Shown piece after piece: positions 35,641 through 52,806 of a stretch of DNA of 54,315 bases. Source of the DNA: Deltaproteobacteria bacterium. Its GTDB lineage: Bacteria > Myxococcota_C > UBA6777. Below the pieces are notes generated by a model that was not told the DNA's origin, did no database searches, and saw nothing but the letters and a program-made list of their open reading frames with translations. Made by a program: the position numbers and the translations under genes. Where the stretch lies: positions 1 through 54,315 of the forward strand of contig PCBK01000090.1 of assembly GCA_002731275.1 (NCBI GenBank). Direction: 5' to 3'. The first letter of the stretch is position 1; every line of letters starts with the position of its first letter.

Positions 35641-38600
35641 TTATCCTCCAAAGAAACGAACGAGTCTTGAGACAGCGCCTTGTGCGCGGATGTATGTTCG
35701 TGTTGTTGCATCGGAGATGGTCTCAGCGGCCTGAGAAAACTGTCGTCCGACCTCTTTGCCAAACGCGGTGGCTTTCTTCTTCACGTAGGAAGCGGCCTCT
35801 TTGACTTCGTTTCCGACGTATTTGGCATCGGCGAAGTTGATTTTGCCGTCGTCATTGAGATCTACTTTGTCATGTGCCCACTTGCCGGCCTTTTTCAAGC
35901 GGCTGATCGCCGCATCTTTTGCCTCTTTTGCGACACGGACACTCGCGTCAGCAGCGGCTTTTGCATCGGCAAAGTTGATCTTGCCATCGTCATTGATGTC
36001 CACTTTGTCGTGGGCCCACTTACCAGCCTCTTTGGCTTTCGTCGTGACGTACGTTTTGCCTTGCTTGATGGCGCGTCCTGTGGCGTCGATGCCTTCTTTG
36101 GCGAGGTCTCTGACCTGTCCGGCGCCAACGCTGACATCGGTGAAGTCGATATCACCATCTTTGTCGCGGTCTGCGACACGGTGTGCTTGTTTGTTGACCC
36201 AGGCTGCGCCCTCTTTGGCTTTGCCACGGGTCCAGGCGGCAGCGTCCTTGGCCGCGTCGACGGAGGCGTCAATCCCATCATCCACTTTCTCTGCCGTCCA
36301 GCGAGCGCCTTGGGCGATGCCACGTCCAACATCTTGGACACCATCAGCCAATGCATCGGCACCGTCGACGATCGCGTCAGCTGCGATGTCGAGACCTTTG
36401 TCTACAGCCTCCACGACATCCTCTGCCGTGTCTACCACTGCGTCTCCGACGTATCGTGCACCGAACATCAGGTCTCTGGCGGAGAGACGTCCGTCATTGT
36501 TCAGGTCTGCGGTGTCATGCGCGCGTCGTGCGACGTTGCGGGCACCTTGACGAAGTTGTTGGCCAAGCTGACCACGACTCTTTGCGTTCCCTAGTGAGCG
36601 AATGGCTCCACCGATCGCATCAACACCATCTTCAATTGCGTCTCCAACGACCTCAACTCCGTCTTCAATGGCGTCGATGCCGCGGTCGATGCCACGACCC
36701 ACAGCTTGAAGACCATCGCCAACAGCGTCGACACCGTCTTCGATCGCATCACCTACAGCGTTGAATCCACGACCAATGGCGCGCCCTGTGGCGTCGACAC
36801 CATCTTCGATTGCGTCGATGCCGCGGTCGATGCCACGACCCACAGCCTGAAGACCGTCGCCAATCGCATCCACACCATCGTCGAGCACATCGCCGACGGC
36901 GTCTGCGGCTTGTACGGAGCGCATTTGTAAGTCGAGAAGAGAGAAGCGGCCGTTCTTATCGGCGTCGAGTGCGCCGATGATACCATCAGCAGAGGACTCT
37001 ACGATGGTTCCGACACCGTCGATCCCACGTGCGGTTAATGTCGCTGGGTCGTTGAGCGTGAGACGATCATCGTTGTCGATGTCACCGGCTTCCTTGGCCA
37101 TTCTGGCGAGCTTGAGGACATCAACCTCGACTTGTCCGCCGATCTTTCCGCCGACTTTGAGGGCGAGTCCACCACCGAGACCGAGTTTGATCTTGCCTTT
37201 TTCGTAGCTCGCGACAAAGTCCCCTTCGATCCCTGCGCCGATCCAGCCCTCACCGATCGCGCGGAAGGTAAAGATCTTTCCGGCGCCAAGTTCGACCTCT
37301 GCGGTCGTTCGTGCGCCGACGAATGCACCGGCTTGTCCTTCGACGGTGGCTTTGGGAGGCCAGGGAGAGAGCGCGACACGTGCATAGGGTCGTGCATCTG
37401 CGCCGACAAATGCCCGTCCCGTGACTTTGACATGAAGGTCGACGAGCTCACCTGCGATTTCTTTTTGAGGGGACGCGACGATCAGCTCTCCCTCTGCACC
37501 GAGAAGATGAAGTCGTGCGTCTGTCGCGATGGTCGCGTCGACACCTTTGGTCGTGATCCGGGCGTTGCCCATGATCGACGCCCCGGCTTCTGAATAGACA
37601 CGTCCAATCCCAGCAGCACCGACACGTTTGGTGACCTTGGTGCCGCTCTTTGAGGCGTACTCAATCCCGGCCCGTGCGTCGATGCCTTCGGTGACTTGTG
37701 CGAGCGCAATGTCCAGCGGGATCGTGAACGTATCGGCCCAATTCTCTTTCTTGGTGGTTCCTTCTGGGATGATCGGTTGTCCGGTCTTTTTGACGACTTT
37801 GTCTTCGACTTTTTCTGTGCGATGGTACCCGATCCTATTTGTGGTCTCAGTGGTGACACCGTTCTCGGTCTCTTTGGTCCAGTGGTACTCGCTGCCCCAC
37901 TTTTTGTCTGCGCTCGCGGTCGCGTGGGTGTGTGTCAATGAACCCTTATCTCCACCGATGCGAAGCTCTGAGCGGCTGCCGTCTTTGTATCTGCGGGCCA
38001 TCGTGCCTTGCAGATCGACGTCTCCATCTTTGTAGATCAACCCACCACCGATATCCGTGTCTGGATCGACCTTGTGACGAGCGTGTGCGCCGAGGTTAAA
38101 GCGTCCCTTCGCGAAGCCGATGCTGCTGTCCATGTCCGTCTTGTCGTCGAACTTGTGTGTCGTCTTCGAGCCAAAGCTGAGGTCGCCATCTTTGTAACCG
38201 AGGGTGCTGTTGATATTGGTCTTGTCATTGACCTTGTGTTTGGAGGTCGCGCCGAGGTGGAACTTTCCACCGACGAAGCCAAGGTTACTCGTCACGTCGA
38301 GATCGTCGTTGACCTTGTGTGTGGTGTTTGTATCGATCGAGAAGCCTTTGTCTCCAAAGCCAATGTTGCTCTTCAGGTGGGTCTTATCATCGATTTGTGT
38401 ATCGACAGAGCTGTTGACGGTGACTTTGCCATCTTTGATACCGATCTTGTTGTTGAGCTTGGTGTCGTCGTTGAGTTGTGTCCCAAAGTCTGCGTTGACG
38501 GAGACTTTACCGTTGTCAAACTTCACATCACTCTTGACGTTGGTCTTGTCATCGAGCTTTGTGTCGACGGAGCTGTTGATGGTGACTTTGCCGTCTTTGA

Positions 38601-39576
38601 TACCGATCTTGTTGTTGAGTTTGGTATCGTCGTTGAGTTTTGTGTCGACGTCGGCGTTGACTGAGACCTTGCCGTTGTCGAACTTTACATTGCTCTTGAC
38701 GTTGGTTTTGTCATTGAGCTTGGTATCGACAGAGCTATCGACCGTAATCTTGCCGTCTTTGATACCAACTTTGTTGTTGAGCTTGGTGTCGTCGTTGAGC
38801 TTGGTGTCGACATCGGCGTTGACGGAGACTTTACCGTTGTCGTATTTGACGTCACTTTTGACGTGGGTCTTATCATCGATCTGTTTGTCAACGGAGCTGT
38901 TGACTGTGACTTTGCCGTCTTTAACGCTGACATCACCCTTCAGCTTTGTGTCATCATCGAGTTTTGTGTCGACGGAGCTGTTGACGGTGACTTTGCCGTC
39001 TTCGACGCTGACATCGCCTTTGACATTGGTATCGTCGTTGAGCTTTGTGTCGACAGAGCTGTTGACGGTGACTTTACCGTCTTTGTAGCCGACGTTTCCT
39101 TTGAGTTTGGTGTCATCATTGAGCTGTGTGTCGACGTTTGTGTTGACGGAGACCTTGCCTTTATCGTAGTTAACGTCGGTTTTGACGTTGGTTTTGTCAT
39201 CAACCTGTGTGGTGACTTTCCCTTTGGCGGTGAGGTTTCCGTCTTTGTCGTAGTCGAACTTGACATCACCCTTGGATTTTTTGCCAAGGTCCTGTTCGTG
39301 AGAGCCTGTTGCACCGCCAAAACCGTGTCTTTCGGAGGTCCGCTTGCACTCTGCATAGGTCTTAAAGTTTTTGGAAGCGTCGCGTAGACGTCCCCAAAAA
39401 GAAGCAGGTGGCTTAGGTGCTTCGGCTTGGGGAGTGAGGTGAGGGTCGCGAATGTCAGTGGTTGTAGGTTTCGCGACTGGGGCGTGGGTTGGTGATGAGG
39501 TCTTGTTGGTTGTGACATCACCTGTTGTAGGGATATGAGCGGGGATTTGTGTCCCGCCAGTTCGTCGAATTGGCAT
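35641..39576 (-). CDS. Giant protein with 27-residue beta repeats and Ca2+-loop C-terminal region
   Basis: 1311 residues from ATG at 39576 (minus), behind GGAAGGAAC. No signal peptide is visible; the N-terminus is Thr/Pro-rich. From about residue 110 to 500 there are about 15 tandem repeats of 27 residues, e.g. KVSVNADVDTKLNDDTKLNN..IGIKDG, with alternating polarity typical of beta hairpins. A ~300-residue region that is not repeated follows. The C-terminal ~450 residues alternate helical segments rich in AVGDGLQAVGRGIDRGIDAI with six loops such as DINDDGKINFADAK and DLNNDGRLSARDLM, which match EF-hand/dockerin Ca2+-binding loops. I recognise no family. It forms a pair with the TPR gene downstream. 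A secreted or envelope structural protein is one possibility, and no export signal is visible. Confidence 0.7.
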   Translation of the reverse strand: MPIRRTGGTQIPAHIPTTGDVTTNKTSSPTHAPVAKPTTTDIRDPHLTPQAEAPKPPASFWGRLRDASKNFKTYAECKRTSERHGFGGATGSHEQDLGKKSKGDVKFDYDKDGNLTAKGKVTTQVDDKTNVKTDVNYDKGKVSVNTNVDTQLNDDTKLKGNVGYKDGKVTVNSSVDTKLNDDTNVKGDVSVEDGKVTVNSSVDTKLDDDTKLKGDVSVKDGKVTVNSSVDKQIDDKTHVKSDVKYDNGKVSVNADVDTKLNDDTKLNNKVGIKDGKITVDSSVDTKLNDKTNVKSNVKFDNGKVSVNADVDTKLNDDTKLNNKIGIKDGKVTINSSVDTKLDDKTNVKSDVKFDNGKVSVNADFGTQLNDDTKLNNKIGIKDGKVTVNSSVDTQIDDKTHLKSNIGFGDKGFSIDTNTTHKVNDDLDVTSNLGFVGGKFHLGATSKHKVNDKTNINSTLGYKDGDLSFGSKTTHKFDDKTDMDSSIGFAKGRFNLGAHARHKVDPDTDIGGGLIYKDGDVDLQGTMARRYKDGSRSELRIGGDKGSLTHTHATASADKKWGSEYHWTKETENGVTTETTNRIGYHRTEKVEDKVVKKTGQPIIPEGTTKKENWADTFTIPLDIALAQVTEGIDARAGIEYASKSGTKVTKRVGAAGIGRVYSEAGASIMGNARITTKGVDATIATDARLHLLGAEGELIVASPQKEIAGELVDLHVKVTGRAFVGADARPYARVALSPWPPKATVEGQAGAFVGARTTAEVELGAGKIFTFRAIGEGWIGAGIEGDFVASYEKGKIKLGLGGGLALKVGGKIGGQVEVDVLKLARMAKEAGDIDNDDRLTLNDPATLTARGIDGVGTIVESSADGIIGALDADKNGRFSLLDLQMRSVQAADAVGDVLDDGVDAIGDGLQAVGRGIDRGIDAIEDGVDATGRAIGRGFNAVGDAIEDGVDAVGDGLQAVGRGIDRGIDAIEDGVEVVGDAIEDGVDAIGGAIRSLGNAKSRGQLGQQLRQGARNVARRAHDTADLNNDGRLSARDLMFGARYVGDAVVDTAEDVVEAVDKGLDIAADAIVDGADALADGVQDVGRGIAQGARWTAEKVDDGIDASVDAAKDAAAWTRGKAKEGAAWVNKQAHRVADRDKDGDIDFTDVSVGAGQVRDLAKEGIDATGRAIKQGKTYVTTKAKEAGKWAHDKVDINDDGKINFADAKAAADASVRVAKEAKDAAISRLKKAGKWAHDKVDLNDDGKINFADAKYVGNEVKEAASYVKKKATAFGKEVGRQFSQAAETISDATTRTYIRAQGAVSRLVRFFGG

Positions 39577-39834: not shown

Positions 39835-40269
39835 ATGCAACATCAACAAGCACCTCAAACATCTATGAATATCCAGCGCCCTCTCGATATTTCGGGAGGC
39901 ATTTTGTCTTTCTTATGCCTGGTTCACTGTCTGGTGTTACCTTCTTTGGTGGCAGCGGCTCCCTCGTTGGGTTTGCAGTTTTTCCAGGCAGAATGGATCC
40001 ACAAGGCGCTTTTGTTTGCTGTCCTTCCTGTTGTCGTGTTGGCGCTTGGGCGTGGGTACAAAGAGCACAACTGGACCGTCCCTTTTTGGGTTGGCGGTGT
40101 GGGCTCTGTGTTGTTGATTGTGGGTGCTTTTTGGGGACATGATTTGCATTTGGAATCGCAATTGACATTGGCTGGTGGTGTCTCATTGATTGTGGCCCAC
40201 AGCCTTAACTTCTGGGCCTCTCGCCAAGCCTGCGAAGCCTGTTGTCCTCCCGAAGGTGTCAGCGCTTAG
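39835..40269 (+). CDS. MerC-domain membrane protein
   Basis: 144 residues from ATG 39835 with a weak ribosome site (ATG 39868 is an alternative). Four hydrophobic helices, with a CxxxHC pattern in helix 1 (FLCLVHCLVLPSL), the pattern of the MerC family, and further His/Cys residues at the end (HSLNFW, CEACCPP). MerC proteins are inner-membrane proteins that bind and take up Hg2+ and possibly other metals; chromosomal versions without other mer genes often sit next to zinc-regulated genes. No other mer gene is present here. The CEACC tail is a plausible metal site. Confidence 0.75.
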   Translation: MQHQQAPQTSMNIQRPLDISGGILSFLCLVHCLVLPSLVAAAPSLGLQFFQAEWIHKALLFAVLPVVVLALGRGYKEHNWTVPFWVGGVGSVLLIVGAFWGHDLHLESQLTLAGGVSLIVAHSLNFWASRQACEACCPPEGVSA

Positions 40270-40278
40270 AGACTTAGA

Positions 40279-42000
40279 CTACTGTGTTTTGAGGTAGGCT
40301 GCGGCTGCGGTTTGTCGGCTCTCAATGTGTGCCTTGAGGGTCTCGACGGAGTTGTTGAAGGCGGCCGCGTTGCTCAACTGTGTGTATCCTGGTTGTTCAC
40401 CATTTGCACCGACGACATAAGGACTTATCATCGTGTGGACCTCTTTGATCCGCGCGACCAATGTGTCCGTGGCAAATGGTCCCTTCGCGAACTCTTCCAC
40501 GTATTTGTTGTAGGTCTTCCGATATTCAGCATCGGCGATAAGATGACCGAGCAGTGGCCACTGCGCAGCGTCGACGTTGGGAAGACCGAGCTGTGTCGCT
40601 GAGCGCCCTCCCCCTCCTCCGCCACCACCCATATTCATCATCACCATGTTGTGGTCCCAAGAGATCCACTGAATGCGATTGTTATCGCCGGGGTCTGCGT
40701 ACAGATAGTAGTTGTGTGTCATGCTCCCATAAGTGTCCCAGTGCACCATCAAATTGGCCATCGCGATCCAGCGTAGGAAGCGATCCACATTGAAGATCTT
40801 CTCCAGACCTTGTCGCCACGCCGCAGCATCTGAGCGATCAGCCTGAAGGTGCGCGATAAGTGCTTTGACATCGCTCCAATCGGCTTCATCTTCGTTGGTC
40901 TTTTTGACCATATCATCCTGCACAAAGCTCGCGAGTGCAGCACCTGTTCCATCGGGTTTGTAGAGGTTTCCTTTGTGGTTCTTGAATTGCTCTTTGAGCA
41001 TGGGACCATCGGGATCTTCGACGAGCGCATACAGACCAAAGTACTTGGAACCTTCACCGTGGTCGACATAGACTCTGTAGAATGCGACTCTTGCGACGGG
41101 GACGCCTGCTGCTGCGAAGAGTTCACGACCGATCAGATCGCGCATCAACGAGTCATCACTGAATCCATTGTTGAGCACGAGTTTTTTGAAGCCGTAAAAG
41201 CGTTGGTTTTTGATATCAGGGTTGTCGTCTTCAAATTTGTCCATGTTGAGGCGGAAGGGGATCTTGTAGCTTCCGCCCTTCCATGCGGAGCTGAGAGAGG
41301 AGTTACCTTTAAAGCGAATGCCCACATCGTGCCACGCGCGGCCTTCGTAAACGAGTTTCGCGGGGACATAAACAGGATCGCCTGGGATGAGATCGCCACC
41401 GCCACCGGGCTGTCCACCGGGTTGCCCTCCTGGTCGTCCGCTGACCATACACACAACGGCGTTGGCTCTTTGATCTTGGGTGCATGTCCCCTTCGTCGTC
41501 GTACCATTGATGGTGACTTCGCAGGCATCGCCTTCTGCTTTGTCTTTGCAAGCCTGTATCATCGCAGCGGGGTCGACTCCGCCGGGGCCTCCTCCAGGTT
41601 GACCGCCAGGTTGACCTCCAGGCTGTCCATTTCCTGCACCAAAAGTACCTGCGAGATTGGTCATATCATCCATCATCTTTTTCCAGTTCGCTGCGGATAT
41701 AGTGATGTCGATGCGGTGGACTTTTTTGAGTGAGAAGACGGTCTCATAGTCTGGCTCTGCATCTTTCCCGTGTGTCGCTTCGCTCCAGCCTTTCTCATCG
41801 ACAGTGGATGCGTCTGTGACTGTGGGTTCTTGTTGGTTGGGTTCGGTGTTTGGTTCTGTCGTGGACTCTTTTGTTGAAGGTTCTGTGTTTGTCTCTCCAG
41901 TTGTTGCAGGTGAACACCCAACAATTGTTTGGCTCGCGAAGAGCAAGAGGAACAGCGGGAAAAAGAGTATTTTGGCAGGGGATAATGTTCGTATTTCCAT
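40279..42000 (-). CDS. CotH-like kinase-fold lipoprotein
   Basis: 573 residues from ATG at 42000 (minus). The lipoprotein signal ends at TIVGC. A Thr/Glu/Pro/Asn linker (about 30-75) precedes a domain starting at VHRIDITISAANWKKMM. Gly/Gln/Pro repeats (GGQPGGQPGG, twice) and a CDKAEGDAC region interrupt it. The body has the CotH signature: GIRFKGNSSLSSAWKGGSYKIPFRL, LVLNNGFSDDSLMRDLIGREL, HNYYLY and IQWISWDHNMVM. CotH proteins are atypical protein kinases; secreted versions are common in environmental bacteria, and their substrates are mostly unknown. It is convergent with the MerC gene. Confidence 0.78.
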   Translation of the reverse strand: MEIRTLSPAKILFFPLFLLLFASQTIVGCSPATTGETNTEPSTKESTTEPNTEPNQQEPTVTDASTVDEKGWSEATHGKDAEPDYETVFSLKKVHRIDITISAANWKKMMDDMTNLAGTFGAGNGQPGGQPGGQPGGGPGGVDPAAMIQACKDKAEGDACEVTINGTTTKGTCTQDQRANAVVCMVSGRPGGQPGGQPGGGGDLIPGDPVYVPAKLVYEGRAWHDVGIRFKGNSSLSSAWKGGSYKIPFRLNMDKFEDDNPDIKNQRFYGFKKLVLNNGFSDDSLMRDLIGRELFAAAGVPVARVAFYRVYVDHGEGSKYFGLYALVEDPDGPMLKEQFKNHKGNLYKPDGTGAALASFVQDDMVKKTNEDEADWSDVKALIAHLQADRSDAAAWRQGLEKIFNVDRFLRWIAMANLMVHWDTYGSMTHNYYLYADPGDNNRIQWISWDHNMVMMNMGGGGGGGGRSATQLGLPNVDAAQWPLLGHLIADAEYRKTYNKYVEEFAKGPFATDTLVARIKEVHTMISPYVVGANGEQPGYTQLSNAAAFNNSVETLKAHIESRQTAAAAYLKTQ

Positions 42001-42259
42001 GTCATCGTACCTTTTGGGAAATGAATTGTGTTTAAGGTCTCTTGGTACGTGCGCATTTGTTTTGGGTTGTTTCAGATTTTTTTGTATTTTTCTGTTGAGG
42101 GAGTAGGAGGTCCCCTCTTTGGAATGTCGAAACATCGAGGATGATGGGGGTTCAGAAAGAAGGTCTCTTGGGGGAGTTTTGCTGGGAGCAGAAAGCACTA
42201 TCGGGGGACATGAATGCCCCCCAAGCGCGGCTTGCCAGCCTTGCTTTCCCCCTCAGTTG

Positions 42260-42583: not shown

Positions 42584-43567
42584 ATGACAACGAATAAAGT
42601 AAACGCCCCCAAACGAGCACTCAGACTCATGCAGTTGATGACCATTTTGAAGGTTCAGCCTGGCATTACTCCCAGCAATCTTTACGATCAACTTGGCATC
42701 AAAAAAAGTCAGTTTAGCAAAGATAAACAATCTCTTGAAGATATGGGGTTTACGTTCCGGTACGATCGAAGTCAAAAACGTTACGAAATCACAAAAGAGC
42801 CCTTCTTTCCATCGGCAGGGTTGAGTTTTCTTGAGTTGTTCTCACTGATTAGCGCAATCAAGCAAATGAGCGTTAAGGGAGATCATGCACTTTCTGCTTT
42901 TTCGATCGAAGCGATCCGCAAGATGATCGCAGCAACGCAAGATGAACGCACAAGAGAACTTCTTCGCTATGAACTTGAAGACACAACCTTAAAAAAGGGT
43001 TTTGGCTGTCACCCTGATGTCTTAAATTGTCTTTTTTCCGCAACAAAAGAGAGAAAGCGTGTCAAGGTCTTGTACAAGGCTCCAAACGACGAACCCAGAG
43101 AGTTTTTGTTTGACCCCTATGTTGTATTCTTTCGCAAACGTGCACTTTATGTCGATGGATATCGTCCTGATCCTATTGAATACAAAGGGTTCAAAACCCT
43201 TCGGCTTAACAGGATCGAGAGCATCACACAACTACCCTATGGATTCCCTCAGCAAGGTAACTACAACTTTCATGAACGTTGGGAACATGTGTACTATCTC
43301 TTCGGCACAAACACACCACCCACTACGACACGCTTTCGTTTTTCAGCAAAAGCAACCCCTTACATCAAAGAGATACAATGGCACAACAGCCAGTCCATCC
43401 AAAACGAACGTGATGGAGGATGTATCCTGACACTTCATGTCGCTGAACCAAAAGAAGCTGTTCGTGAGTTCATGGAATGGGGAGCTGAGATGGAGGTGCT
43501 TGAGCCAGAAGAACTGCGAATGTGGTATCACGAAGAGCTCCAAAAAATGCTCGCTTTGCATACATAA
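42584..43567 (+). CDS. WYL-domain transcriptional regulator
   Basis: 327 residues. An N-terminal winged helix (RALRLMQLMTILKVQPGITPSNLYDQLGIKKSQFSKDKQSLEDMG, about 10-55) is followed by a WYL domain (about 145-220; KRVKVLYKAPNDEPREFLFDPYVVFFRKRALYVDGY) and a WCX-like C-terminus with AVREFMEWGAEMEVLEP. Family members bind nucleic-acid-like ligands and often control CRISPR-Cas or other defence genes. The gene lies directly upstream of the cas operon, reads in the same direction and is separated from it by a 245-nt region with its own strong promoter. It is the likely regulator of that promoter. Downstream hairpins lie at 43569-43581 and 43620-43633. Confidence 0.85.
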   Translation: MTTNKVNAPKRALRLMQLMTILKVQPGITPSNLYDQLGIKKSQFSKDKQSLEDMGFTFRYDRSQKRYEITKEPFFPSAGLSFLELFSLISAIKQMSVKGDHALSAFSIEAIRKMIAATQDERTRELLRYELEDTTLKKGFGCHPDVLNCLFSATKERKRVKVLYKAPNDEPREFLFDPYVVFFRKRALYVDGYRPDPIEYKGFKTLRLNRIESITQLPYGFPQQGNYNFHERWEHVYYLFGTNTPPTTTRFRFSAKATPYIKEIQWHNSQSIQNERDGGCILTLHVAEPKEAVREFMEWGAEMEVLEPEELRMWYHEELQKMLALHT

Positions 43568-43812: not shown

Positions 43813-44052
43813 ATGAGAAAGCACCCTGAAGAACCAAACATTTACAAAGAGATCCTCGAAAGTTTCATTCAAGAACGCCGCGAAAAAGAACAAATGCGTT
43901 CGTTGAGAGAGGAAGTTGTCTACGAGATGCTTGCCTTGATGATCGATTCAAAGGCTTTTGAGACACACGAACAAAACCAAACAGAACAATTTCTTTTTAC
44001 CCTCATTTCAAATGGAGAGAGTCACAATGAGTATGCACAAGCCATTGACTGA
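43813..44052 (+). CDS. Small acidic helical protein at the head of the cas operon
   Basis: 79 residues from ATG 43813. The 3' end overlaps the large-subunit gene (start 44027) by 26 nt in another frame, so translational coupling is likely. The chain is rich in Glu/Arg/Lys and predicted helical (EEPNIYKEILESFIQERREKEQMRSLREEVVYEMLALMID), with no hydrophobic segment, signal peptide or known motif. I recognise no family. Candidates are a new accessory Cas protein, a regulator or an antitoxin-like protein; there is no evidence for any. Its position directly after the cas promoter, and the overlap, argue that it is a real gene. Confidence 0.5.
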   Translation: MRKHPEEPNIYKEILESFIQERREKEQMRSLREEVVYEMLALMIDSKAFETHEQNQTEQFLFTLISNGESHNEYAQAID

Positions 44053-46426
44053 TTCTGTCACACCAGAGAAAAAACGCTTCCTTAAACAACTCTGTGCCTC
44101 TCTCGTCTTTCAGAAGGCTACCCCCTCAAGTGCCCCAAAGGCGTATGAGTATCTTTCTTACAAGTTCCAACATAACCCCACCTATAGAGCTTGGCTGACA
44201 TCTATTTGCCCCCCAAAAATGCTACGTACCCTTCGTCGATACAAAGGAAGTGACGAAATTCCTGTTTGCCCTGAAACTCCGAAAGGTACATCAATTCGTT
44301 TGTATCGAGCTCCTTCCCCGACAGAGCAACAGGCAAAAATCGCAGCGGATAATGTTGCAGAACAATGGAGCATGTTTCTTGCCGAACGAAACATCCCAAC
44401 GATGCTCGCAACACCAACGCTCTGTGTTGTTTTTGTACCCGAAGGGATGGTTTTTGATGTGGATGAGCTATGGTCTACCTTTCTACGCGAAGATCTCCTC
44501 TCTTTAGGATCTCTGTGTCGTTCTCTGCTCCCTTTACTCAATCTCTCTAAACTCTCCGCACGTGGTTTTTCTGCTCCTGAGATTCTTTTGGTGTCCGGGG
44601 GAATGAGAACGTTTATGTGCGCTTGGTTCTTGCGGACCTATGACTTGGTAAAAGAGCGACTCACCAACCGTCAACACAAGCTTGGGAGTGAAGATCTTTC
44701 TGAGAAGGAGAGAGAAAAACTCCAGGCACTTCAAGACAAAGAAATCGAAAAGTACAACACGCACTTTCAAAGGCGTTGGAAAGCTTTACGCAAAGAGGTT
44801 GACAAGCACCAAGACAAACTCAACAAACAACAAAATAAAATCGACAAGCTCAAAAAACCTTCTGGTAAAAAGTACGAAAAGCTGCTGAAAGAACTCCGAA
44901 GGCTTCAACAGCAGGAACCCTTTCCAAGCTCTGCTTGGTCGAGGTTAAACACTCTCGCGCAAGAGGAACAATTCAACCCCTTTTGCGTCATCGATAAAGA
45001 ACTCAGAGCCAACACAGCGCAATACAAAGAGATCGTACAAACCTCGAAGAAATTTCACAGAAAAGCAGCGGACCAACTGAATCACCCAAGGGGAGACATT
45101 TTCGCGTCCATGTTGGTGGAGTTGCTCAAAGCAGCTAACACCCCCGATGAGGCTTGCTTGCAGACGATTCCATCCATGTTTTCGACACAACCTTTTGCTC
45201 CACCACCTCGTAAAGCTGGAGATTCCCCCAAACAAATCTGCTTTGTATGTGGAGCTTACATGGAAAAAGATGAGCCTTCCTTTGAGCTTCGTCGGATGAT
45301 TTTTACATCTCCTGAACAACGACTACAAGGAAGCCCAAACCCCAAAAAACCCAAGTGTTGTATCTCTTGTGTTACATACGCTTACGTATGTGGCGCAAAA
45401 CCAACGGAAGATACCACGATTATCAAAATCATCCCCAAGAACCAACAAACACAACATTCTGAAGGAGATACTCAGCAGATAGGGCGTATCCTGATCAACA
45501 AGGAGCTTAACATTCAATCAGGTCCTTACCTTCTGTTGGGTTGTAAGGAGTGGTTGTCTGCGAAGGGAGGGTTTAAGCCCGTCTCGGCCTCGGTTGGTGC
45601 CCTTGCCTATGCATATTATCGTATCGCCCGAGACGTACATCCCGCAGCCCTCGAACACATGCAGTTCTTTCTTGTGGAAAGAGGACAAGAGATCCCCCTC
45701 TCCAACACTCGACTGTTCTGGCTTTATGCGTTGCTTCAGGCTTCTGGCCTCTCCATCGAACAACAAGGAAAGCTCTCACTGCCAGTGAGTCAAATCATTC
45801 GTGTTCTTCTTGCTGACGAGTATATCGAATCCCAATACATCGCCGCTAAACACACAACATTACCCACAAGCTTTCCTATGAAAATGGAGGCTTTTTGGCA
45901 CTCCCTTTCCATCATCTTTCAAAAGGAGAAAGATATGTCCACACAAGCAGAAAACAAGCTCTCTGAGATTGAGCTTATTGCTGGTATGACGGGATTACTC
46001 ATCCCGTTTATCAACCTCCTCAAAAGAAAACTCAGCGATAAGGGCAAAAAAGAGAAAGAGATTCATCGCGAGATGGCGAAACTCATTGAAAACTGCAATG
46101 ATCCGTTCCTGTGGAATTACAATTTCGCCTCGCACAAAGAGATCGTTTTCAAAAGCGCAAAGTTGTTCAAAAATTCGGATAGCTACTTCATCTATGAACA
46201 AACCAAACGATTACTCTCCAACCTTCCGCAAGGAATTGACACTGCAGAGAGAGAAGAAGTCAACAAAGAAGGTGCCTCTTTGCAAATCAACTTTGACGAC
46301 GTCCTCGCTTCTTACAACATGTATCTCTCTGATAACCTGAACAGACAACAACGCAAAGAGCTCACAAACAAACTCAAACTCTCTCTCTACAGTCGCTTTC
46401 CATCCGTCTTGAGCCGTTACAAATAG
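44027..46426 (+). CDS. CRISPR large subunit, Csc3/Cas10d- or Cas8-like, without HD domain
   Basis: 799 residues from ATG 44027, chosen over the longer frame because GGAGAG lies 7-8 nt upstream. A coiled, Lys/Glu-rich segment occupies about 215-300. A zinc-finger-like pair follows: CFVCG (about 405) and CCISC (about 444). No N-terminal HD motif and no GGDD are visible. Position (first, before Csc2 and Csc1-like genes), length and the Cys pairs point to the type I-D large subunit or a Cas8 derived from it. It should hold the PAM-recognising end of Cascade. The C-terminal helical part (640-799) seems to be expressed separately as well (see 45935). Naming is uncertain; csc3-like by context. Confidence 0.7.
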   Translation: MSMHKPLTDSVTPEKKRFLKQLCASLVFQKATPSSAPKAYEYLSYKFQHNPTYRAWLTSICPPKMLRTLRRYKGSDEIPVCPETPKGTSIRLYRAPSPTEQQAKIAADNVAEQWSMFLAERNIPTMLATPTLCVVFVPEGMVFDVDELWSTFLREDLLSLGSLCRSLLPLLNLSKLSARGFSAPEILLVSGGMRTFMCAWFLRTYDLVKERLTNRQHKLGSEDLSEKEREKLQALQDKEIEKYNTHFQRRWKALRKEVDKHQDKLNKQQNKIDKLKKPSGKKYEKLLKELRRLQQQEPFPSSAWSRLNTLAQEEQFNPFCVIDKELRANTAQYKEIVQTSKKFHRKAADQLNHPRGDIFASMLVELLKAANTPDEACLQTIPSMFSTQPFAPPPRKAGDSPKQICFVCGAYMEKDEPSFELRRMIFTSPEQRLQGSPNPKKPKCCISCVTYAYVCGAKPTEDTTIIKIIPKNQQTQHSEGDTQQIGRILINKELNIQSGPYLLLGCKEWLSAKGGFKPVSASVGALAYAYYRIARDVHPAALEHMQFFLVERGQEIPLSNTRLFWLYALLQASGLSIEQQGKLSLPVSQIIRVLLADEYIESQYIAAKHTTLPTSFPMKMEAFWHSLSIIFQKEKDMSTQAENKLSEIELIAGMTGLLIPFINLLKRKLSDKGKKEKEIHREMAKLIENCNDPFLWNYNFASHKEIVFKSAKLFKNSDSYFIYEQTKRLLSNLPQGIDTAEREEVNKEGASLQINFDDVLASYNMYLSDNLNRQQRKELTNKLKLSLYSRFPSVLSRYK
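45923..45937 (+). promoter_or_regulatory. Internal ribosome binding site and start inside the large-subunit gene
   Basis: AAGGAG (45923-45928), 6 nt, then ATG 45935, in frame with the surrounding gene (codon 637 of the 799). It is at least as good as the site of any other gene in the operon and lies exactly before the all-helical C-terminal region. Confidence 0.75.
45935..46426 (+). CDS. Predicted Cas11-like small subunit from an internal start
   Basis: 163 residues from the internal ATG, sharing frame and stop with the large-subunit gene. The product would be all-helical (STQAENKLSEIELIAGMTGLLIPFIN at its start), of the size usual for Cas11 small subunits. It is established for several type I systems, including type I-D, that the small subunit is made by internal translation of the large-subunit gene. 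Here that is inferred from the ribosome site and the lack of a separate small-subunit gene. If it is correct, several copies would line the Cascade belly alongside the Cas7 filament. Confidence 0.65.
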   Translation: MSTQAENKLSEIELIAGMTGLLIPFINLLKRKLSDKGKKEKEIHREMAKLIENCNDPFLWNYNFASHKEIVFKSAKLFKNSDSYFIYEQTKRLLSNLPQGIDTAEREEVNKEGASLQINFDDVLASYNMYLSDNLNRQQRKELTNKLKLSLYSRFPSVLSRYK

Positions 46427-46448: not shown

Positions 46449-47324
46449 ATGTCCACTGGATTGAATACATCAGAAGAAAAACGCGAACACCTCGACATCT
46501 ATGCCATCTTTGAAGGGCCTCAAGAACTCTACTTTGGTGATCGAGTTCAGATCAATGTCAACCTTGTCGAGCAAATCACACTCGAATCCGCAGATGGCAC
46601 ACAGATCAAAAAGTGTTACATCTCTCCAACAAAGCGACGTGGTGTTGAGCGGCGAAGCTTGATTTGGGCACCGACCAACACTGGAGCGTTATTGGGGGAT
46701 GTGAGAGAGTGTGGTATTCCCAAAACATGTGTAAAACAAGATTGTCCGATTTGTGCGATCTATGGGGCGATGGATGCAGGAAATTCGACTCTGATTGGAC
46801 GACTCACACATGGCGGAGGTGTTGCGATCCAAGCTCTTCCCCCTGAAGAGAAGCAGCGTGCAATGCACCCTGCGCTTATCGCAAGAAAGAATGAAGAGTC
46901 CCCCACCCCATTCCGCCGAGAGTACAATGAACCTGGTCTGTTGTACCCTAATTCCAACCACTTTTTGAGTGTAACAGAGAAAGAGTTCACCGCCGGAGCG
47001 TATGCATTTCTCGATTCGTTGGCTCGTGTTGGTGCGGGGAATCCCAAGGGTGTCAAACTCTTCGAGAAAGACAACCAGCCGATGCTCATCGTCGATCGAT
47101 ACCTGAGTCCAATGGGAAAACGTCCGATTCTCTCACCTCACATCTCAGATACAAAACAAGCCATCGAAACCTTCGAGCGGTTAGCAAGAACCGTTCATGG
47201 GAAGCTCTACAAGGAGAACACCATCAAGATGGAGAGATTCGAGCGCAAGATCGGTGATGATGCGCTTGTCTATCTCCAAACGTGTGCAGATCAATTCGTT
47301 CAGGACCATCTTCAGGGCTCATGA
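46449..47324 (+). CDS. csc2: Csc2-type Cas7 backbone protein
   Basis: 291 residues behind an AAAGGA site. Characteristic Csc2 features: RRSLIWAPTNTGALLG, then a Cys cluster CGIPKTCVKQDCPICAIYG (Cys89, 94, 99, 102) that probably binds zinc, followed by a thumb-like loop and ARVGAGNPKGVKL. Several copies should coat the crRNA spacer. Csc2 with a CPxC-IYG motif is the marker of type I-D; this fixes the subtype relation better than any other gene here. The stop overlaps the next start as ATGA. Confidence 0.8.
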   Translation: MSTGLNTSEEKREHLDIYAIFEGPQELYFGDRVQINVNLVEQITLESADGTQIKKCYISPTKRRGVERRSLIWAPTNTGALLGDVRECGIPKTCVKQDCPICAIYGAMDAGNSTLIGRLTHGGGVAIQALPPEEKQRAMHPALIARKNEESPTPFRREYNEPGLLYPNSNHFLSVTEKEFTAGAYAFLDSLARVGAGNPKGVKLFEKDNQPMLIVDRYLSPMGKRPILSPHISDTKQAIETFERLARTVHGKLYKENTIKMERFERKIGDDALVYLQTCADQFVQDHLQGS

Positions 47325-48145
47325 TGTACTGCGTAAAAATAGAGCTACAACCAACAAGCGCAATGACCTTTCGGGTCATTCCAGGCTCCAACTTGGATAT
47401 CGCAACATATCCGTTTTTGCCTCCAACAACGATGTCTGGATACCTCCGAAGAATCGCTATGATGGCTGCAGGAGAGGAGCTTCCAAAGGCAACAGTCGAG
47501 ACGAAAGAAGAGGGAGCGCACTACTACGCGCTTCCCCCTCATCTGCTCACGACAGGCGCGATCCCTATTGGGATGAAGGGTATACACAAGACGCACAGAA
47601 AAGGCCCATCCAACTTCAAACACTTTGGGTTCTCTCAAATTTACCGCAAGAAGATAGACAAGCAGGAAAACATCCAACTGCACACTTGGGAGTATTTCTT
47701 TTGTGAGTCGATGGTGGGTTTTGTGCTCGCAGAATCGAGCGAACACCTTGTGGGTTTCAAAGACTGTGAGGGCTGGGGATGTAAGATCGGAAAGGAAGGC
47801 TATGCTGTCGTTCATTCTGTAAGTGAACCTATTGCGCTCCAACAGGTCCGTTGTGCTGCGACACCTTCCACCCTCCTCTCTCCTGAATCTATCGAGCTAG
47901 AAGATCTGTACCAGCCGATCGAGTTTTATGGTTTGTTCAATTATCAATGGAGTTCGAAGTCTTCGAATATGCCGGGGGGACCAGCAAGCACGCAGCCCTC
48001 ATCGATTGAAGGGTATATTCCGCTCTCCGTCGGGAATCCGGTGTCAGGTGCAACATTCACGCTTGATTACCTCCATGATGGAGAAGATATCTTCATCGCT
48101 TTGTCCTGGATTCAAGCGTTGCAGCGTGGCCTTCCAAAGAAGTAG
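47321..48145 (+). CDS. Cas5/Csc1-like subunit
   Basis: 274 residues from ATG 47321, overlapping the csc2 stop (ATGA); the open frame upstream to 47282 is only the csc2 overlap. RAMP-like features: beta-rich, with a sequence near the N-terminus, TYPFLPPTTMSGYLRRIA, typical of Cas5 proteins, and a Gly/Ser-rich loop towards the C-terminus. Its position between csc2 and cas3 and the size suit Csc1, the type I-D Cas5, which holds the crRNA 5' handle. Cas5 sequences diverge greatly, so the assignment leans on position. Next comes cas3, 14 nt later. Confidence 0.65.
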   Translation: MMYCVKIELQPTSAMTFRVIPGSNLDIATYPFLPPTTMSGYLRRIAMMAAGEELPKATVETKEEGAHYYALPPHLLTTGAIPIGMKGIHKTHRKGPSNFKHFGFSQIYRKKIDKQENIQLHTWEYFFCESMVGFVLAESSEHLVGFKDCEGWGCKIGKEGYAVVHSVSEPIALQQVRCAATPSTLLSPESIELEDLYQPIEFYGLFNYQWSSKSSNMPGGPASTQPSSIEGYIPLSVGNPVSGATFTLDYLHDGEDIFIALSWIQALQRGLPKK

Positions 48146-48159
48146 ACAGGAGCATGATC

Positions 48160-50970
48160 ATGCAACAAACAAATACAAAACGTCAGGTCGGTCGTGTCTT
48201 TTTTCGAACGAAACATACTGATGGTGTCGAGATTCCATACGAAATGGACGTGATCTTACTCGATAGTCATGTCGAGAATGTACACCAACTCGCGAGCTGT
48301 TGGCGTTCATCAAGCAGGCTTCGAGAAGAAGATGGACGAAGTTACCTGTGGGGAGGAAGTCGAGACAATGTTCTCTCCGCAGCAAGAAGACACGATGATG
48401 GAAAACCTGCGAAGTTCAAACTGACTTACAACAACAGAGGTGGTAAAGGTTTTGGCTACTCCTTTGCTGGCCACCGCTTCATCGTGCCGCCCAAAGAGCC
48501 TTATGAAGATGCGCTGATCCGAGGACACCATGATTTCTCTGTCGAAGATATCACGGAGGCCGCATACAGGCTTCAAGAGACACTTAAGGAGACAGATTGT
48601 TCGGACTTACAAGGCCTTGCTGCATTGTCTCCTCAGGCGCTCATGCAACGATACAGAGAAGACCTGTACATTCTTGAGATGTGTGATCAAATCGAAGCTT
48701 CTATAGAGTCTATGTTGCTCGATCATTCGGATCCGAGAAACTTCATGGACTTTTCTCTTTTCCCAAAAGAAGAACCCAAACATTCTCTCTCCGACACCAA
48801 AAACCTCCAACAAATGGAACTATTCTCCCAAGGTAACATGCCAGAAGATGTGCAACATCTCATCGTGGAGCCAGCTTTTTGGGACGGAGAACCACTCATT
48901 GTAGAGGTGAAGTTTGTTACGATAGAGATCCCTCAAGAAGTACAAGACAACCTTTTGAAAGAAATTGGAAAAGGCGAAGAAGAAAAGGCTGCGAGGTTTC
49001 TCAAAAAGCACTTGATGGAGCAACTCGAACAAGCACCGCTACAACACAAGCGTGCATACCTGCACAAGCCGCAAACGTTTTCTCATAAAGAATGCTCGAA
49101 AAATATCAAGGATATCTTGGGTTTTGAGAAGCTCAACCACATGCAAAAAGAGGTTTATGAGAGCGTTGTAGCGAAAGATGATCTCTCCCTTTTACTCCGT
49201 GCACCAACAGGGAGCGGAAAAACGGAGGCTGTGTTGTGGCCTTGCCTTGTCGAACAACGACGTCTGATCCTAGCACTCCCAACCCGCTCGTTGCTTGATG
49301 ACCATGCAGAGAGAATACACGCCATACTCACCCGTGCGGCACTCACGAACCAGCGCACGTACACAATGATCATCGACACTGGAACACAAACGAGGCAACA
49401 GCTTTTCACGCCAGAAGGCCCAAAAGAAGGACATCGACGCCACCTCTATCGCGCCGATGTGATCCTTACAACACTCGATAAATTGATTTACAGGTTTTTT
49501 GGATACCAAGATAAAACCAAGTCTATGATCTTCCCCCACAGGATCGCGCAATCGAATACCATACTCTGTTTTGATGAAGCGCATAGTTATGAAGAAGTTG
49601 CTTGGACCAACTTTCGTAAGTTGATTCGTGCGCTCTATCAGGCAGGACAAGATCTCCTCTTGATGACCGCGACGATGCCTCCCCATCTTCTCGAAGAGTT
49701 CTGCGACCTCGATATCCTCGATTACTGCGAGGGAGAGAAAGGAGCAGTGCTTCTTGAAGATATCAAAACGTATTGTTCACAACGAGGTGAGTGGCACCCA
49801 CAAAAGAAGCTATTTTGGCAAGATGTTCCGTTTGTACAGGATGAAACGCTCACCTCTTTTGAGCAAGAGCAGGCATACGAAGCGACCCTCGCAATGAATC
49901 TTGTGAAACAAACCAAAGAAGCACTCTTTGCACAAAAGCAACGCATCATTGTCGTTACAAATACTGTGGACACAGCGATCGATGTATATAAGTTGCTTCA
50001 AACACACATCACCACCTCGAAGTCCTCCCACGAGTTATTGTTGTATCACGGTAGACTGGCTTCACTTCGATGGGACGAAGGAAAACGCTCTTTAAGCCCT
50101 CGTGCGGAACGTTACAAAAAACTAAAGGGTTTGGATCAACGCCAGGAGGCGTACGTTCTTGTCACAACCCATGCGATTGAGGTGGGTTGTGATCTCGATG
50201 CAGATAAGTTGATCACATCCCTCTGTACTCCTGACGCCCTTATTCAACGTGCAGGTCGATGTAATCGAAAGAACAACACTCAAGATGCCAGTGTCTTGGT
50301 TGTTGGTTCGCACATTCCATCCTACCTGAACAATATGGAAGAACCCCAAAGGCACATGTACCTTACATATCTTCGAGAACACACAGGCTCACAGCTTGAG
50401 GCGAATGCCTTGATGCCCTTTTTGGACAAGGAAGAGGCAGTAGAAGATCCTCGTGTTGTCGAAGGTTTTGATATGCTTTATGAGTATGTATATCGTGGGG
50501 ATATCTTGTACCAACCATTACACAAGAGAGGGATGCTCGCGACAAGAAGTTGGGAGCCTACAGTCACATTCCGATTTTGTGTAGGGGGACGAAGAGATGA
50601 AGTTACCATACCGCTGACGAGATTGCGTTTGCGAAAAGATGAAGAACCTCGTGTCGATCTGTGTGTTCTGGAGAAGGTCTACGATCCAGGACAAGGAAAG
50701 TACGTCGAGCAACCACTCACTCGGGGGAATGCTTACGCTAAAAGAGAGATTATCGTGGAGGTGGTGGATACATGCATGCTTGCGGGAGCGACCCTGGACA
50801 ATTTTGATGAGACTGGATGCTATGATGAAGTTCTTGGGTTGTACGAATTACCACGATTATTCAGGATTTGGAAACAACGCTCCAGCCTGAAGATGTTGGC
50901 GATGTATGTGTCCGAAGAAGGGAAAAAGATCATCCTCGATTTTTTGGCCCCTTACGAATTGGAGGAGTAA
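48160..50970 (+). CDS. cas3: Cas3 helicase with N-terminal HD nuclease
   Basis: 936 residues from ATG 48160 (AGGAG with 7-nt spacing; ATG 48154 is too close to it). The N-terminal ~250 residues contain HD-nuclease motifs: His in DSHVENVHQLA, ARRHDDGK (His-Asp at about 78-79) and RGHHDFS (about 122-125). The helicase part has LRAPTGSGKTEA (about 347-354), DEAH (about 471), LLMTATMP, and QRAGRCNRK (about 695). It should unwind and degrade target DNA after Cascade recruitment. In canonical type I-D the HD sits on the large subunit and the Cas3 lacks it; here it is the reverse. The gene is 3 nt from cas6. Confidence 0.87.
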   Translation: MQQTNTKRQVGRVFFRTKHTDGVEIPYEMDVILLDSHVENVHQLASCWRSSSRLREEDGRSYLWGGSRDNVLSAARRHDDGKPAKFKLTYNNRGGKGFGYSFAGHRFIVPPKEPYEDALIRGHHDFSVEDITEAAYRLQETLKETDCSDLQGLAALSPQALMQRYREDLYILEMCDQIEASIESMLLDHSDPRNFMDFSLFPKEEPKHSLSDTKNLQQMELFSQGNMPEDVQHLIVEPAFWDGEPLIVEVKFVTIEIPQEVQDNLLKEIGKGEEEKAARFLKKHLMEQLEQAPLQHKRAYLHKPQTFSHKECSKNIKDILGFEKLNHMQKEVYESVVAKDDLSLLLRAPTGSGKTEAVLWPCLVEQRRLILALPTRSLLDDHAERIHAILTRAALTNQRTYTMIIDTGTQTRQQLFTPEGPKEGHRRHLYRADVILTTLDKLIYRFFGYQDKTKSMIFPHRIAQSNTILCFDEAHSYEEVAWTNFRKLIRALYQAGQDLLLMTATMPPHLLEEFCDLDILDYCEGEKGAVLLEDIKTYCSQRGEWHPQKKLFWQDVPFVQDETLTSFEQEQAYEATLAMNLVKQTKEALFAQKQRIIVVTNTVDTAIDVYKLLQTHITTSKSSHELLLYHGRLASLRWDEGKRSLSPRAERYKKLKGLDQRQEAYVLVTTHAIEVGCDLDADKLITSLCTPDALIQRAGRCNRKNNTQDASVLVVGSHIPSYLNNMEEPQRHMYLTYLREHTGSQLEANALMPFLDKEEAVEDPRVVEGFDMLYEYVYRGDILYQPLHKRGMLATRSWEPTVTFRFCVGGRRDEVTIPLTRLRLRKDEEPRVDLCVLEKVYDPGQGKYVEQPLTRGNAYAKREIIVEVVDTCMLAGATLDNFDETGCYDEVLGLYELPRLFRIWKQRSSLKMLAMYVSEEGKKIILDFLAPYELEE

Positions 50971-50972
50971 AT

Positions 50973-51806
50973 ATGCCAGCCGCTTTTATCGTCGAGTGTG
51001 TCTCGGCAAATGAGAAGGGGCTTGATCCCCAAAAGCTACGTATGAGACAGTTGCAAGGTGCATTTTTGGAGGCGGTACGTCGTGTTTCACCAGAACAAGC
51101 CCACCAACTTCACGAAGGGAGTCAGGAGAAGCCCTATACTCTCGGTTTGATGGAGCGTATGTCTCAGAAAAGAGGATTCATCAAACGCTTTCAGTTTCGT
51201 GTGACGTTATTGGATGATGCATTCTTTCCGTTGGTGTTGCAATTGCAGGCGACAACACATGATGAACCTCTGATGCTCGGAAAGCAGCCCTTTAAGATAC
51301 AAAGCATTCATACAGGAACAGGTCACTACGCAAAGTGGACAGGATTTTCGCCGTGGTCGAAGCTCTTATCTGACGCTTCAACTCAGCATATCGTTCATTT
51401 GAGGTTGGACACCCCTGTCAGCTTTCGTCAGAGCCAGAAGGAGAAAGGAACGCGGCTTGAGATGCCGCTCCCTCTCCCAGAACTTGTATTGGGAAGTGCG
51501 TTGCGTAAGTGGCAATTGTGGTCGGGCGAAGTGCTTGATGAGGAGCTTCGAAAGTATCTTTCTTCGGCCATTGAGATTACTTGGCCATTTTCTCTAGAGA
51601 GCCATGAAGTGGAGTTTCATATAAGAGGCACAACAAGGCGAGTTGTTGGCTGTACAGGGCAAATAACGTACAGGCTTCATCACAAACAAATACCAAAAAC
51701 AGTCCTTCAGCAGATGAACGCGCTGGCAAGTAGTCTTTTTTACACAGGAGCAGGTGTCAGGACAGCGTTTGGCATGGGGCGTCTTTGTCAGATAGAGCAA
51801 CCATAG
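50973..51806 (+). CDS. cas6: Cas6 crRNA endoribonuclease
   Basis: 277 residues from ATG 50973, 2 nt after the cas3 stop, with GGAGG at 50961-50965 as an ideal ribosome site. The chain shows two RAMP-like halves and ends with the Gly-rich loop YTGAGVRTAFGMGRL typical of Cas6. Active-site His is not certain: candidates lie in the first half (HQLHEGS, THDEP, HTGTGHY). It should cut each repeat after the CTCC/GGAG stem, giving an 8-nt 5' handle ATTAAAAC. The 25-nt gap to the cas1 remnant has no room for a missing N-terminus. Confidence 0.82.
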   Translation: MPAAFIVECVSANEKGLDPQKLRMRQLQGAFLEAVRRVSPEQAHQLHEGSQEKPYTLGLMERMSQKRGFIKRFQFRVTLLDDAFFPLVLQLQATTHDEPLMLGKQPFKIQSIHTGTGHYAKWTGFSPWSKLLSDASTQHIVHLRLDTPVSFRQSQKEKGTRLEMPLPLPELVLGSALRKWQLWSGEVLDEELRKYLSSAIEITWPFSLESHEVEFHIRGTTRRVVGCTGQITYRLHHKQIPKTVLQQMNALASSLFYTGAGVRTAFGMGRLCQIEQP

Positions 51807-51831: not shown

Positions 51832-52170
51832 ATGAAAAAATCGATGGCATTTTTGACTGAACAAGGTCGGTATCTTGGACGATTGGAACCGGCATTTTCG
51901 AAAAACTGTTTTTTGAGAGAGGCGCAGTACAAGAAGTCTTTTTCCGAAGAGAAAAGTCTTGAGGCAGCTCGTTGTATCATCGGAGGTAAGCTCGCCAATC
52001 AAAGAACGTATCTGGTTCGAGGAAACCGAACTCGTCGCACTGAACGTCTTGGACATGCGATAAAAAAACTCAAAATGATGGAGCGAAAGCTTTGCACGGT
52101 GGACAACATCCCTTCTCTTTTGGGATTTGAGGGAACTGCGAGTTCATTTTACTTAAGTGAGTCACTATGA
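51832..52170 (+). pseudogene. cas1: Cas1 remnant, central fragment only
   Basis: 112 residues (ATG 51832, no ribosome site visible). It aligns to the middle of Cas1: MAFLTEQGRYLGRL, then FLREAQY, ARCIIGGKLANQRTYLVRGN, and LLGFEGTASSFYL, the last containing the first catalytic Glu of the family. Cas1 is normally about 300-340 residues. Here the first ~60 residues and the last ~170, which hold the catalytic His and second acidic residue, are missing. The stop overlaps cas2 as ATGA. This is either a degraded gene or, less likely, a maintained mini-protein. Spacer acquisition by this copy should be impossible. No Cas4 is found in the locus. Confidence 0.8.
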
Positions 52171-52445
52171 TGTTTTTTGTGATTTCTTACGACGTGAGCG
52201 ATGACAAGCGCAGAACGCAGATCCACAAAGCGCTTAAATCATTTGGTTTGTGGGTGCAGTATAGTTTGTTTGAGTGCGAGCTGAGCAAATCTGATTATGT
52301 CAGGCTTCGAGAGAGGCTGGAAGCGTTGAGCAAACCGGAGGAGGATAACCTTCGCTTCTATAAACTTTGTCAGGTGTGTCAGGAGACTGTAGAGAGAATA
52401 GGTGAAGATCCTCGCCTTGATGAGTTTGGCATCTTCATAGAATGA
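52167..52445 (+). CDS. cas2: Cas2 adaptation protein
   Basis: 92 residues with the ferredoxin-like Cas2 fold: MMFFVISYDVSDDKRRTQI (YDVSDD contains the conserved Asp), GLWVQYSLFECELS and a final FGIFIE strand. The size is typical and the frame is intact. It overlaps the cas1 remnant by ATGA. In functional systems Cas2 bridges two Cas1 dimers; with Cas1 reduced to a fragment, Cas2 is unlikely to support adaptation unless another Cas1 is supplied in trans. Confidence 0.88.
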   Translation: MMFFVISYDVSDDKRRTQIHKALKSFGLWVQYSLFECELSKSDYVRLRERLEALSKPEEDNLRFYKLCQVCQETVERIGEDPRLDEFGIFIE

Positions 52446-52806
52446 CAGGAAACAGCGAGTTTGTTTGCGCTTGTTGTCGAAACATGCCATACTTTGATGC
52501 ACCACAAAGAATGCTTTTTGAGAAAAGAATAATCTGCTTTTTGGGTTTCGGGGATCGAAGCTCAAAAAGGTCGTTTTTGTTGCGTCGGATCATTTTCTGT
52601 AACACTATCAGAGAGATGATGTCGAACAATGGTTTCTTTTGTGTTTTGGGATGCTCGAATCTTTTTAAGTGTTTGAATGGTTTGAGTTTTGTTGAAGTGT
52701 GAATGTTTTCACTCTTAACAAGTAGCTTGCATAAGGGGCTTCCGAATCTGGTTGCTCGAAAAAGGGTAGACAAGTCCTCGATACTAGAGTATCTTTTTTC
52801 CGGGCT
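52446..52806 (+). promoter_or_regulatory. CRISPR leader
   Basis: 361 nt, AT-rich and without a convincing gene, between cas2 and the first repeat. T/G-rich tracts (for example TTGTGTTTTGGG, GTTTTGTTGAAG) suit a leader. TTGAAG at about 52692 may be a -35 box, but no good -10 is seen. A 14-bp palindrome with a T-run abuts the first repeat (52780-52799). The leader lies on the 5' side of the transcribed array, as the repeat orientation also indicates. Confidence 0.65.
52780..52799 (+). terminator. Palindrome plus T-run at the leader-repeat junction
   Basis: GATACTAGAGTATC (52780-52793) is a palindrome with GATACT/AGTATC arms, followed by TTTTTT (52794-52799), 7 nt before the first repeat. It looks like a weak intrinsic terminator of a cas transcript or a protein-binding site for leader-proximal integration. 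The short stem makes termination uncertain. Confidence 0.4.

Follow-up and report, generated by a model that had tools for sequence, protein, structure and literature searches.

A conserved internal start site in a divergent cas8b gene, predicted to encode a Cas11-like small subunit

Gene content and type of the CRISPR-Cas locus

The stretch of DNA analysed here, referred to as the window, is the 54,315 nt contig PCBK01000090.1 of a Deltaproteobacteria bacterium, and its distal part carries a CRISPR-Cas operon on the forward strand. A gene for a WYL-domain regulator (positions 42584-43567; Pfam WYL/WCX), which adjoins cas8 in Thermus and Picosynechococcus too, precedes a large-subunit gene (44027-46426). 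The 799 aa product of the latter matches the PADLOC Cas8b model PDLC01527 (E 1.5e-120, 22-752/759) and includes Zn-finger cysteines at residues 405, 408, 445 and 448, forming a CxxC...CxxC pattern that is invariant in the family alignment. Next are cas7 (46449-47324; Cas7b, PDLC01388, E 5.6e-112) and cas5 (47321-48145; Cas5b, PDLC01389, E 4.3e-78, and the family alignment), followed by cas3 (48154-50970), which was recognised by helicase models and HD motifs and encodes an N-terminal HD nuclease and a helicase. The cas6 gene (50868-51806; PADLOC Cas6d, E 3.5e-25; Pfam PF10040) is I-D-like, and its true start is probably the ATG at 50973. A cas1 remnant (51832-52170) of 112 aa covers about residues 63-170 of about 337, and no other Cas1 match was found in the genome. 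It is followed by cas2 (52167-52445; PADLOC Cas2d, E 3.3e-35) and a CRISPR array of at least 21 repeats (52806-54315) that reaches the contig end. The repeats are about 37 nt in length (CTTCCCACCCCAACGTCGCTCCAACGGAGATTAAAAC) and are spaced at 70-78 nt. The window showed no cas4 homologue. The adaptation module looks decayed, although the effector genes look intact and an array of at least 21 repeats is present.

The initial annotation had placed the large subunit in a type I-D setting and stated that the locus had lost the HD nuclease, and neither claim holds. The features of type I-B are present, namely matches to the Cas8b, Cas7b and Cas5b models and a Cas3 with conserved HD and helicase motifs. 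The HD motifs SHV, HDDGK, AGHRF, GHHD and CDQIE, which begin at Cas3 residues 38, 80, 105, 124 and 177, are conserved in relatives in their H, HD, GH, GHH and D positions; loss of the HD from the locus is thus ruled out, and the division of labour is that of an ordinary type I system. The HD domain fused to the large subunit in type I-D was not detected, as no His is conserved among the columns that are invariant in this large-subunit family. Profile comparison of the effector subunits with Cas10d, Cas7d and Cas5d of the Synechocystis I-D system also gave no match. By sequence, the large subunit belongs to Cas8b (type I-B in PADLOC), and a Cas10d assignment is rejected on the PADLOC match and the null comparison with Synechocystis Cas10d. 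Unlike the I-B-matching cas8, cas7 and cas5, the cas6, cas1 and cas2 genes of the operon resemble I-D types.

Direct homologues with a similar layout are carried by pTT27 of Thermus thermophilus and by plasmids of Picosynechococcus, and further homologues were identified in several cyanobacteria, one Syntrophomonadaceae MAG and two further families. No relatives were found in viral contigs and phage records. Sequence searches of the PDB likewise revealed none, whether the query was the single large subunit or a profile of Cas8, of its C-terminal domain, of Cas7 or of Cas5.

Predicted internal start site in cas8b

Direct reading of the sequence located AAGGAG at 45923-45928, a 6 nt spacer at 45929-45934 and an in-frame ATG at 45935-45937 (caaAAGGAGaaagatATG), exactly as described in the initial annotation. 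The ATG is codon 637 of the 799 in the gene starting at 44027, and the open reading frame that it opens (45935-46426, stop codon 46424-46426) specifies a predicted Cas11-like small subunit of 163 aa, 19.0 kDa and pI 9.2. The duplex of AAGGAG with the anti-Shine-Dalgarno (anti-SD) sequence was calculated at -8.7 kcal/mol, the strongest among the 20 internal in-frame ATGs of the gene. The site lies in a hairpin loop of the predicted window mRNA, with an accessibility that is the highest among the 18 internal Met codons of the gene. When the 32 CDS-like ORFs of the window were used as background, an equally strong duplex (-8.7 kcal/mol) preceded 4 of 268 internal in-frame ATGs (1.5%), and hence the SD at 45935, taken by itself, is weak to modest evidence.

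No separate small-subunit gene was found in the operon, in line with the initial annotation, and none is annotated in the relatives. There is no room for one between the large-subunit gene and cas7, because the latter starts at 46449. A profile search of the 10.75-Mb assembly with the C-terminal domain returned one copy, that in cas8b, and no second.

Conservation of the internal start

Conservation was assessed in 20 non-redundant sequences comprising the window, Thermus, cyanobacteria, Syntrophomonadaceae and other lineages, in which the large subunits of the relatives share 25-28% identity with that of the window. The alignment was scanned in stretches of 16 columns, counting as SD-like any site of -4 kcal/mol or better. 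An in-frame ATG is present at the inter-domain junction, within the same 16 alignment columns, in all 20 sequences, and an SD-like site precedes it in 16 of them; lack of such conservation had been named in the initial annotation as one outcome that would count against an internal start. Any other 16-column stretch of the gene has an ATG with an SD-like site in at most 8/20 sequences, the average being 0.55. The mean SD score is -6.4 kcal/mol at the site versus -1.7 at 168 other Met codons of the same genes, with a Mann-Whitney P of 1.5e-7 that is overstated because the sequences compared share ancestry.

The form of the signal differs between lineages. Thermus has AAGGAGGTGGGCATG at the same junction, and in many cyanobacteria the ATG follows AGGAG or AGGA after a few bases. 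The SD is read as AAG-GAG codons in the window and Thermus and as GGA-G in most cyanobacteria. The residues around the site (QKEKD, EKEVG, GVD, LGNN, SLEVWIHMI) and the gap lengths also vary by lineage, with the ATG and the SD remaining. The two codon registers and several amino acid contexts therefore indicate that nucleotides have been kept and residues have not. In L009, L015 and L022, the SD sites are weak or badly spaced. A separate Cas8b branch from other bacterial families (L031-L033) has GGAGGT before an ATG in 3/3 members, about 12 alignment columns earlier in the linker, which suggests that the start may have shifted position while the signal was retained. In Thermus thermophilus TTHNAR1 (L006, 5125-7173), the cas8 homologue is apparently cut at its 5' end and forms a 683-codon open frame, annotated as a 264-aa gene only; even so, neither the C-terminal domain nor the internal SD-ATG has been lost.

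An explanation without internal initiation is that the SD-like bases and the Met simply follow from the amino acids of a flexible, charged linker, and that the helical domain acts within Cas8 only. A strong SD-like site before an internal ATG is no rarity in the window (the 4/268 given above), and another stretch of the gene reaches the 8/20 count. Synonymous-codon shuffles gave a mean of -5.04 (sd 0.54); as they retain much of the SD strength, much of it follows from the amino acids used. The observed -6.4 is nevertheless stronger than the shuffle mean (z about -2.5, with at least 1 of 400 shuffles lower than observed), and codon choice therefore contributes to the signal. Further, the count at the junction is twice that of the next best stretch, and the ATG and SD stay where the surrounding amino acids and gaps vary. 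To our knowledge, small subunits are present in the type I Cascades whose structures have been determined, and here no other gene encodes one. A by-product of the linker is thus unlikely, and the degree of conservation raises the internal SD-ATG far above what is expected by chance at the sequence level.

Predicted structure of the C-terminal product

An AlphaFold2 model of residues 637-799, built from the family alignment, has a pLDDT of 85 and a pTM of 0.81; rows from plasmid records were left out of the alignments behind the structure models. The chain, described in the initial annotation as turning all-helical at residue 637, is modelled as mostly helical with a small insertion of three strands. 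A comparison of this region with Cas11 had also been proposed, and here the helical make-up agrees but a clear Cas11 match was not obtained, a result that decides little for small helical bundles. The best Foldseek match of the 163-aa model in the PDB had E about 1. VIA-align gave unrelated helical proteins as the best matches (Z 4.6), with a III-B CRISPR chain (9l7c_H) at Z 2.3, and sequence profiles did not detect known Cas11.

The model of the full-length large subunit has a pLDDT of 73, falling below 50 at linker residues 634-637. In VIA-align, its best match was 7sba_I, the Cas10d of an I-D Cascade (Z 6.3, 443 aligned residues, 7.2 A), with residues 21-792 aligned to 92-965, and this was the only match spanning the protein among those listed. 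The C-terminal part of the large subunit in 7SBA is a Cas11 domain (PMC9123187). No CRISPR chain was present among the Foldseek matches listed for the full-length model. The end-to-end coverage of 7sba_I suggests possible kinship, at a Z of 6.3 that falls below the level of proof, and the resemblance of the model to Cas10d in shape is a hint that I-D and I-B may be linked.

The poorly ordered linker before residue 637 would also suit proteolytic clipping of Cas8, which could release a free C-terminal fragment without internal initiation, and in other I-B systems fragmentation of Cas8b was formerly proposed, as PMC11899642 recounts. Clipping leaves the conserved SD and ATG unexplained, however, and in Haloferax the equivalent product disappeared when the Met codon was mutated (PMC11899642), making this origin very improbable.

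The first helix of the product shows a SLATT (2TM)-like similarity of 20.9 bits, confined to about 50 residues. Given a cut-off of 100, a SLATT identity is rejected. This similarity bears on whether an internal product could have a different function, for instance to regulate or inhibit the complex, in the manner of intragenic C-terminal products of some other defence proteins; intragenic antitoxins are known (Rpn, PMC10327210). The score is far below the cut-off over a short segment, and the product fits Cas11 in location, size, helical content and genomic setting, so that a different purpose is the least credible of the explanations considered.

Proposed role of the internal product

The preferred reading, to which a probability of roughly 0.87 is given, is that cas8b would make two proteins, the large subunit and free, internally started copies of its C-terminal domain that join Cascade. 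Ribosomes starting at 44027 would produce the 799-residue large subunit, and a second set loading at the internal AAGGAG and starting at the ATG at 45935 would produce the free C-terminal 163 residues. Several such copies would sit along the belly of Cascade, next to the same domain within Cas8, and would keep the displaced (non-target) DNA strand open during recruitment of Cas3, which has an HD nuclease of its own. In this scheme, use of the start, joining of Cascade, copy number and the R-loop role are modelled on precedents, and the observations made in this work are the signal, its conservation, the absence of another small-subunit gene and a confident, mostly helical model. The earlier proposal of a Cas11-like subunit translated from its own ribosome-binding site and start inside the gene is accordingly upheld for the conserved SD-ATG and set aside for the I-D framing and HD loss that accompanied it.

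Comparison with known systems

Internal translation of Cas11 in type I systems including I-D, to which the initial annotation had referred, is documented for I-D (PMC10212523, PMC9123187), I-C (PMC7684278) and I-B, the latter in Synechocystis 6714 (PMC11096372) and Haloferax (PMC11899642). In the I-D system of Synechocystis PCC 6803, Cas11d likewise arises from an in-frame start in the 3'-terminal part of cas10d, which encodes the large subunit. The candidate Cas11d start, Met830, is preceded by AAGGA (-5.4 kcal/mol by the same scoring) and would give 146 aa. The accessory genes of the window locus (WYL, Cas6d, Cas1d, Cas2d) are similar to those of I-D. However, in I-D the HD nuclease is part of Cas10d and absent from the helicase, whereas the HD of the window locus is in Cas3, and no sequence similarity was detected between the effector subunits of the two.

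The I-B systems of Synechocystis PCC 6714 (Cmx8/MYXAN) and Haloferax volcanii are also of the Cas8b class with Cas11b started inside cas8b, for which there is experimental support (PMC11096372, PMC11899642). The Cas8 family of the window differs in that, even as a profile, it matches no PDB chain by sequence, despite the availability of a solved I-B complex. In I-C of Desulfovibrio vulgaris, Cas11c is made from an internal ribosome-binding site in cas8c and helical small subunits are present in the complex (PMC7684278), but the large subunit belongs to another family than Cas8b of the window.

A direct homologue is found in the I-B system of Thermus thermophilus HB8/HB27 (Cas8b TTH_RS11135), which shares the neighbours WYL, cas8, cas7, cas5, cas3 and cas6 and the internal SD-ATG. 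It differs in having full cas1, cas2 and cas4, at 27-28% identity of Cas8b, and has no Cas11 annotated. I-B interference in T. thermophilus HB27 works in vivo, as reported in a paper that makes no mention of Cas11 (PMC10989782), and we infer that the locus tested there is that of TTH_RS11135.

The probable internal Cas11 start in the divergent Cas8b family of the window is a well-supported addition to the known I-B, I-C and I-D cases, and it extends intragenic Cas11 to a Cas8b family without a solved structure. This family may already have been covered by the original survey (McBride et al. 2020).

A tentative and rather doubtful idea is that the Cas8b family of Thermus and cyanobacteria is a Cas10d-derived large subunit in an I-D/I-B intermediate, which would retain the layout of I-D, its kind of Cas6, Cas1 and Cas2 and an internal Cas11, with the HD absent from the large subunit and carried by Cas3. 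If this were true, the Cascade of this family would represent a missing link from the type III-like I-D to the classical type I complexes.

Eukaryotic ribosomes do not initiate internally at Shine-Dalgarno sites. The small subunit should therefore be provided as a separate gene when Cascades of this family are rebuilt elsewhere, and this advice extends to the I-B system of Thermus thermophilus, which has been used for genome editing.

Other features of the window

Upstream of the operon, a gene on the reverse strand (35641-39576) specifies a protein of 1311 aa that contains a tandem repeat of 81 nt (27 residues; KVTVNSSVDTKLNDDTKLKGDVSVKDG-like) and, as another repeated region, one in which GIDAIEDGVDA motifs occur. 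By eye, a MerC-like small membrane protein is encoded at 39835-40269 on the forward strand and, beside it on the reverse strand (40279-42198), a predicted lipoprotein that looks CotH-kinase-like and has Gly/Pro-rich repeats.
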